DNA of 64,000 bases. Origin: Arbacia lixula (lineage: Eukaryota; Echinodermata; Echinoidea; Arbacioida; Arbaciidae). The notes below the pieces were generated by a model, which saw nothing but the letters and a program-made list of their open reading frames with translations, did no database searches and had not been told where the DNA came from. Location of the stretch: contig OZ022584.1 of assembly GCA_963669155.1 (NCBI GenBank), positions 20,357,147 through 20,421,146 on the forward strand, given 5' to 3'. Shown one piece after another: positions 7,029 to 62,966 of this stretch (positions within the stretch are counted from its first letter, which is position 1; the number at the start of each line of letters is the position of its first letter). The position numbers and the translations under genes were made by a program.

Positions 7029-7100
7029 TATGCTCTGGAGGAATATCAACATCATCAAACGAGCAAAGAGCAGATCCACAAACCCCAGTACAAACCCAAG
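7029..7100 (+). CDS. BLNK: adaptor exon 1 found: basic N-terminal segment
   Basis: Acceptor CGTTGCAG and donor AAG|GTATGT bound 72 nt. All three frames are open, but only the frame beginning T|ATG leaves two bases (AG) that complete an Arg codon with the first base of exon 2 in its BLNK-like frame. The peptide starts MLWRNINIIKRAKS and is rich in Lys/Arg/Asn. It occupies the place of the basic coil-like segment that precedes the PPxxPxRDY region in BLNK. The ATG at 7030 is the second base of the exon, so it could be the initiator after a non-coding first exon; otherwise an earlier exon, for example one coding a SAM domain as in SLP-76, lies upstream or was missed. Confidence 0.62.

Positions 7101-62966: not shown

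Follow-up and report, generated by a model that had tools for sequence, protein, structure and literature searches.

The plus strand of the window, the whole stretch of 64,000 nucleotides analysed here, carries most of a gene that is very probably an invertebrate member of the SLP-76/BLNK/CLNK adaptor group, and one that, judged from its SH2 sequence, would have branched off before BLNK and SLP-76 split. This family is best known for antigen-receptor signalling in the T and B lymphocytes of vertebrates. The SH2 domain of the predicted protein is closest to that of BLNK and groups in trees with BLNK and SLP-76, and a SAM domain lies upstream of it, which agrees with the preliminary description of a BLNK/SLP-76-type adaptor in an invertebrate genome.

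As modelled, the gene comprises 21 exons extending over ~97 kb (-31197 to 65463, numbered so that positions <1 precede the window and those >64000 follow it) and encodes 733 residues in a single stop-free frame, with an in-frame stop 24 codons 5' of the ATG (Table 1). The model was built on splice-site scores, reading phase and codon content after 50 kb of sequence had been added upstream of the window and 20 kb downstream; the genome searched comprised 607 Mb in 590 contigs, the window being part of contig C9. Because phase was itself one of the criteria by which exons were selected, the continuous frame is partly there by construction. The gene had originally been placed at 7029..62966, and both ends are exact exon edges (exon 4 begins at the one and exon 20 ends at the other), but the three 5' exons, which belong to the SAM domain, and the last exon fall outside the window. 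The spliced product of this interval, first given as 666 residues, comes to 631 residues in our model.

The order in the predicted protein is a SAM domain (exons 1-4), an acidic linker of ~214 residues with eight tyrosines (exons 5-16), a proline-rich region of 314 residues between the tyrosines and the SH2 domain (exons 17-18), and the SH2 domain (exons 19-21). No kinase domain was found in the 733-residue predicted protein, in which the only Pfam models to match were SAM-type and SH2. NCBIfam contained no family matching the SH2 domain, and within the window there was no Rfam match at the gathering score.

Table 1. Exons of the predicted adaptor gene, in window coordinates, with the motifs they encode and, where given, the basis on which they were chosen.
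Exon	Position	Strand	Length (nt)	Phase	Content and basis
1-3	-31197..-31138, -23185..-23123, -3698..-3625	+			SAM; ATG in exon 1; upstream of the window
4	7029..7100	+	72	2-2	Last helix of SAM, MLWRNINIIKRAKSRSTNPSTNP; splice scores, phase and Pfam
5	10085..10143	+	59	2-1	Linker; Y107 (DYRTD), the eighth linker tyrosine
6	19829..19875	+	47	1-0	Acidic, DDLDDDFTDDEDDNS; sole phase 1-to-0 exon above threshold in the intron
7	20616..20709	+	94	0-1	YLQP, Y132
8	24657..24697	+	41	1-0	SWGHPPSGGMSQL; best of the six candidates that fit the phases of exons 7 and 9; prediction
9	32400..32445	+	46	0-1	YLQP, Y181
10	32857..32904	+	48	1-1	YDQV, Y190
11	37437..37492	+	56	1-0	YDIP, Y204
12	51985..52040	+	56	0-2	SQQQNRMANTPGPRIPPP; splice and coding score; prediction
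13	55219..55333	+	115	2-0	Proline-rich, RPVQNFRQPVGRGHHHSNDPPAPPIPSRIQPIPATPDD; splice and coding score; prediction
14	56335..56350	+	16	0-1	Microexon; YDCP, Y279; acceptor 10.0, donor 12.7 (strong)
15	57168..57202	+	35	1-0	NEEEEYFEPHG, Y289
16	58037..58064	+	28	0-1	DDEFYLEPE, Y299
17	58921..59724	+	804	1-1	Proline-rich; open frame, coding score 240.8; weak acceptor (-0.3)
18	61213..61352	+	140	1-0	End of proline-rich region
19	62408..62491	+	84	0-0	Start of SH2, SNTLEGYPWYHGDIGRQASEQALFQCKK
20	62814..62966	+	153	0-0	SH2 core, FIVRDS and QKYALGTKK; Pfam SH2 genome scan E 5e-4
21	65353-65463	+			Not in the window (2.4 kb beyond exon 20); end of SH2 and of the protein

The exons differ in what they rest on. 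Exons 8, 12 and 13 are predictions from splice and coding scores alone, without homology support; a first model of 676 residues was superseded by the present one once exons 12 and 13 had been found. Exons 2 and 3 were picked out from the list of candidate exons and the sequence, and pattern searches for SAM exons gave nothing usable. Exon 4 had also been read in phase 0 (YALEEYQHHQ), a reading that was dropped because phase 2 extends the SAM helix and joins exons 3 and 5, and a candidate exon at ~8600 was dropped for a stop in the required phase. For exon 16, an alternative acceptor at 58034, 3 nt earlier, would add one Q. The intron between exons 5 and 6 contains a possible 15-nt, five-residue microexon (12013-12027; PDDE, phase 1-1, donor 10.7, acceptor 4.2) that was left out of the model on its moderate score; if it is an exon, it would be an optional in-frame acidic insert.

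The SH2 domain was matched by its Pfam model at residues 627-709 (55 bits, 9.1e-15), and exon 20 is among the 51 places returned by a Pfam SH2 scan of the genome. When the domain was compared with solved structures using phmmer, the highest score among the best 60 of 212 matches was that of BLNK (2eo6, 69.2 bits), followed by PLC-gamma (53.9 bits, two domains summed), ABL (43.7) and SYK (39.6). Identity is 39% over 103 residues to vertebrate BLNK (SLP-65), the best solved match, and 36% over 91 residues to vertebrate SLP-76 (LCP2, a provisional sequence). An SH2 tree had been proposed as a check on the family assignment, and in a tree of 15 rows, 11 of them provisional sequences (LCP2 and 10 outgroup rows), with CLNK absent and the bootstrap not fully settled, the domain clusters with BLNK and LCP2 (96/96) and branches outside the BLNK-LCP2 pair (100/98). 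The grouping with BLNK/SLP-76 is less firm in a wider tree of 25 rows (88/96), again with CLNK absent, that included an SH2 exon of 62 residues from another locus. That exon (L029:1071-2600; C15:9413000-9418000) lies beside an ankyrin-like frame, and we take the locus to be probably an HTK16/Shark-type kinase; it groups weakly with BLNK/SLP-76, which may be an effect of its short row.

At the other end of the protein, the Pfam model SAM_2 matched residues 6-47 (29.6 bits against a cut-off of 20.5, 7.7e-7), and SAM_PNT covered residues 5-76 with a score that stayed below the cut-off in the whole protein. Among solved structures, constructs of ETV6 were nearest and the SAM domain of LCP2 (2eap) reached E 0.61, so that the SAM domain alone gives no indication of SLP-76. 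It is the combination of an upstream SAM domain with an SH2 domain of BLNK/SLP-76 type that makes the layout SLP-76-like; BLNK, to our knowledge, has no SAM domain, and in this respect the present protein differs from it.

Two readings compete with assignment to the SLP-76/BLNK/CLNK group. The gene might belong to another SH2 adaptor family, for instance of PLC-gamma, Abl or Nck type, and look BLNK-like merely by virtue of its tyrosine-rich linker: SH2 domains share a general level of identity, the blastp score of LCP2 (57.8 bits, from the provisional sequence) is barely above that of ABL1 (55.5, with NCK1 at 48.5), and the larger tree is the less firm of the two. We nevertheless consider this highly improbable, given that BLNK is ahead by 15 bits in phmmer and by 23.5 bits over the top non-family row in blastp, and that we know of no other family with the layout SAM - acidic YxxP linker - proline-rich region - SH2. 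The model might also have merged two or more neighbouring genes (a SAM gene, a tyrosine-rich gene and an SH2 gene), an error that introns of up to 19 kb, tiny middle exons and the use of phase in choosing exons could favour. Against such a merger, which we think can hardly have happened, stand the single frame across 21 exons and the starfish Patiria miniata, for which a published study describes a predicted protein, and likewise a single assembled transcript, that contain SAM, proline-rich and SH2 segments together (PMC11593052). The SAM and SH2 halves of that transcript are in different frames, for which its authors blame an assembly error (PMC11593052).

The seven tyrosine exons of the linker stand at the positions and have the lengths and motifs originally reported for them, and they chain in frame. 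Their tyrosines, said to follow acidic residues in almost all cases, do so in all seven, with two to five acidic residues among the preceding six. The eighth linker tyrosine, Y107 (YRTD), is likewise the sole tyrosine of its exon. In 134 kb, a loose first scan had returned 139 readings as candidate exons, mostly due to chance and many of them overlapping, and a control count was therefore needed. It took in exons between 14 and 100 nt long whose splice scores were comparable and whose YxxP had an acidic residue at most three places ahead of it, with 60 dinucleotide shuffles for comparison. Between 7000 and 58900, four such acidic-preceded YxxP exons were counted on the plus strand and none on the minus strand, against a mean of 0.13 (maximum 2) in the shuffles; when any YxxP was accepted, the counts were seven and one, against a mean of 0.67 (maximum 3), one of the seven (55300-55333) being a reading in another frame inside exon 13 and outside the model. 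The YDQV exon falls outside both patterns. As the thresholds were set to admit the exons of the model, the count is a check for excess and not a blind test.

A motif scan of the 733-residue predicted model revealed no YESP-type, YxPP or YEPP site. Two RxxKP sites are present in exon 17 (residues 334 and 544) and, going by the motif, could dock SH3 domains of GADS or Grb2 type; at least one such site occurs in 19% of shuffled proline-rich regions. A simple pattern scan for a WW domain gave two matches, neither of them convincing.

The eight linker tyrosines fall into eight separate exons. If tyrosines are scattered at random among the 12 linker exons, no exon receives more than one with P = 0.073 for the seven motif tyrosines and P = 0.026 for all eight, and the tiny size of these exons explains most of the pattern. 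It had been suggested that such an architecture would allow splicing to trim the set of docking sites, a proposal that the exon lengths do not bear out: six of the seven are not divisible by three, so that skipping any one of these alone shifts the frame, and the 48-nt YDQV exon (exon 10) is the only one that is frame-neutral when skipped by itself. We weighed how far the tyrosine exons might form a splicing switchboard, on which skipping would yield isoforms with different docking sites and the set would have grown by exon duplication. Frame-neutral groups can be assembled (exons 7+8, 135 nt; 9+10+11, 150 nt; 14+15, 51 nt; 15+16, 63 nt), and two RefSeq isoforms of the P. miniata protein are 38 residues apart (PMC11593052). 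These groups, however, are sums of lengths and none amounts to 114 nt, and a retained intron of 114 nt inside exon 17, which would explain the published 38-residue difference, was not found either. As for duplication, 4 of the 21 pairs of tyrosine exons are alike in DNA, with no more than 15 of 300 codon shuffles scoring as well (exons 9/16 and 9/15, 0/300; 7/10, 2/300; 10/16, 7/300), and when 150-nt flanks were included none of 60 shuffles was as good for the pairs 9/16 and 9/11. This likeness may stem from duplication or from the shared motif alone, and motif constraint accounts for it equally well. With one tyrosine per exon being near what random placement gives, we judge a switchboard to be quite unlikely; the small exons are the make-up of a disordered linker, and no evidence was found for a role as a splicing switch. 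A literature search on the exon structure of BLNK/SLP-76 yielded nothing useful, nor did it find a publication apparently dealing with how the exons of an invertebrate member are arranged.

That the SLP-76/BLNK family occurs in echinoderms is already in print (PMC11593052; PMC5431462). A 'BLNK-like' protein with SAM, proline-rich and SH2 segments was described in 2024 from egg RNA of P. miniata (B-cell linker protein-like, XP_038070561, with an isoform named 'extensin-like', XP_038070565); the published transcript derives from mature eggs, and an 832-bp RT-PCR product from eggs confirms its SH2 half (PMC11593052). Like the present protein it comes from an echinoderm and has an N-terminal SAM domain, a proline-rich region and a C-terminal SH2 domain. 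Its residues are numbered to 759 compared with 733 in our model (PMC11593052), and either ~26 residues may be missing from the model or the 759-residue protein may be another isoform. The available part of the starfish study makes no mention of tyrosine exons (PMC11593052).

An amphioxus SLP-76 was cloned in 2017 and compared with those of sea urchin, sea squirt, lamprey and other animals (PMC5431462). This invertebrate family member, bbslp76 (642 aa), has a SAM domain, a proline-rich region and an SH2 domain, as here, but it also has a WW domain after the SAM domain and the Itk motif DYEPPP, a site common to human and amphioxus SLP-76 (PMC5431462); the present gene has no convincing WW domain and no YxPP. 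Vertebrate SLP-76 shares the same layout of SAM domain, acidic tyrosines, proline-rich region and SH2 domain, yet its N-terminal sites number three (PMC5431462), in place of the seven YxxP/V sites found here. The three are of the YESP/YEPP type.

Since an echinoderm member has a SAM domain, a tyrosine linker, a proline-rich region and an SH2 domain, the full layout would be older than the chordates, and an echinoderm SAM domain contradicts the remark in the amphioxus paper that this domain had not emerged until amphioxus (PMC5431462). Noteworthy here are both the occurrence of the SAM domain outside chordates and a YxxP array without an Itk-type YEPP. The absence of YEPP from the predicted protein suggests that docking of a Tec kinase at such a site was a chordate addition or, alternatively, that it was lost in the lineage of the present gene.

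Beyond the order of domains and motifs, which is read from the predicted protein, we infer from the family how a kinase might be coupled to PLC-gamma. A Syk- or Src-type kinase would phosphorylate the acidic YxxP/V tyrosines, and the phosphorylated sites would then dock SH2 proteins of the Crk, Nck or RasGAP type, whose SH2 domains prefer pYxxP. SH3 proteins, Grb2 or PLC-gamma for example, would be held by the proline-rich region; clustering of the scaffold would fall to the SAM domain, and the SH2 domain would tie the scaffold to a phosphorylated upstream partner. A complex of this kind would bring PLC-gamma near its kinase, leading to PLC-gamma activation and calcium signalling. Starfish, as far as we know, have no lymphocytes. 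The egg transcriptome of P. miniata includes transcripts for Syk, BMX, Grb2, PLC-gamma and Src-family kinases, and in the available part of that study the T-cell signalling proteins for which starfish eggs gave a match do not include SLP-76 (PMC11593052). It is conceivable that an echinoderm SLP-76-type scaffold with a SAM domain acts outside, or before, lymphocytes, connecting Syk and Src-family kinases of the egg to PLC-gamma and the calcium rise of fertilisation by way of a YxxP array of Crk/Nck type that is older than the YEPP of Tec type, and that it fills the place of SLP-76 missing from the published egg list (PMC11593052). We offer this tentatively and regard it, as a whole, as rather unlikely. 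The gene itself provides the egg-activation field with a concrete candidate adaptor between tyrosine kinases and PLC-gamma.

Candidate partners were sought in the same genome and named by their best tblastn match to a provisional panel of SH2 domains, with part of the 51 SH2 places classified. A Syk-type locus (L021:1954-9226; C5:12556000-12565900) has two SH2 domains 6 kb apart, with 44% and 52-55% identity; a His/Pro-rich stretch precedes the N-terminal one, the C-terminal one is spread over two exons, and no ankyrin-like frame was seen by eye between them. Exons for the N- and C-terminal SH2 domains of PLC-gamma were identified (L022 and L023), as were loci for Nck (L025), Src-family kinases (L016, L017, L024 and L026), RasGAP (L027), Csk-type kinases (L001 and L006), Abl (L003) and SHP2 (L018 and L019). 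Neither Tec nor Vav stood out among the SH2 loci that were classified. The PLC-gamma peptide of the starfish study (PMC11593052), searched as HERK, IAKEF and KMRIA, was absent from 52 kb of the plus strand of the PLC-gamma locus; the pieces may cross an intron or lie beyond the 52 kb searched.

Repeats of two kinds were noted in the adaptor gene. The intron before exon 4 contains a tandem duplication of ~1.7 kb (2263-3947 and 3973-5657, spacing 1710), whose copies are >85% identical in 50-nt windows nearly throughout and 99% identical over a 300-nt piece. Shorter tandem arrays abut exons at 8751-10076, 32931-33111, 37506-37916, 59762-60495 and 61363-61652, and there is also one at 63055-64000. 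For five of 14 tandem arrays a splice site is no more than 40 nt away (9, 27, 14, 38 and 11 nt), where 0.30 would be expected, a closeness reached by none of 5000 random placements in what was a post hoc test. The exon-abutting arrays consist of four minisatellites, with periods of 25-86 nt, and one TC repeat, and they seem to grow right up to the exon edges.
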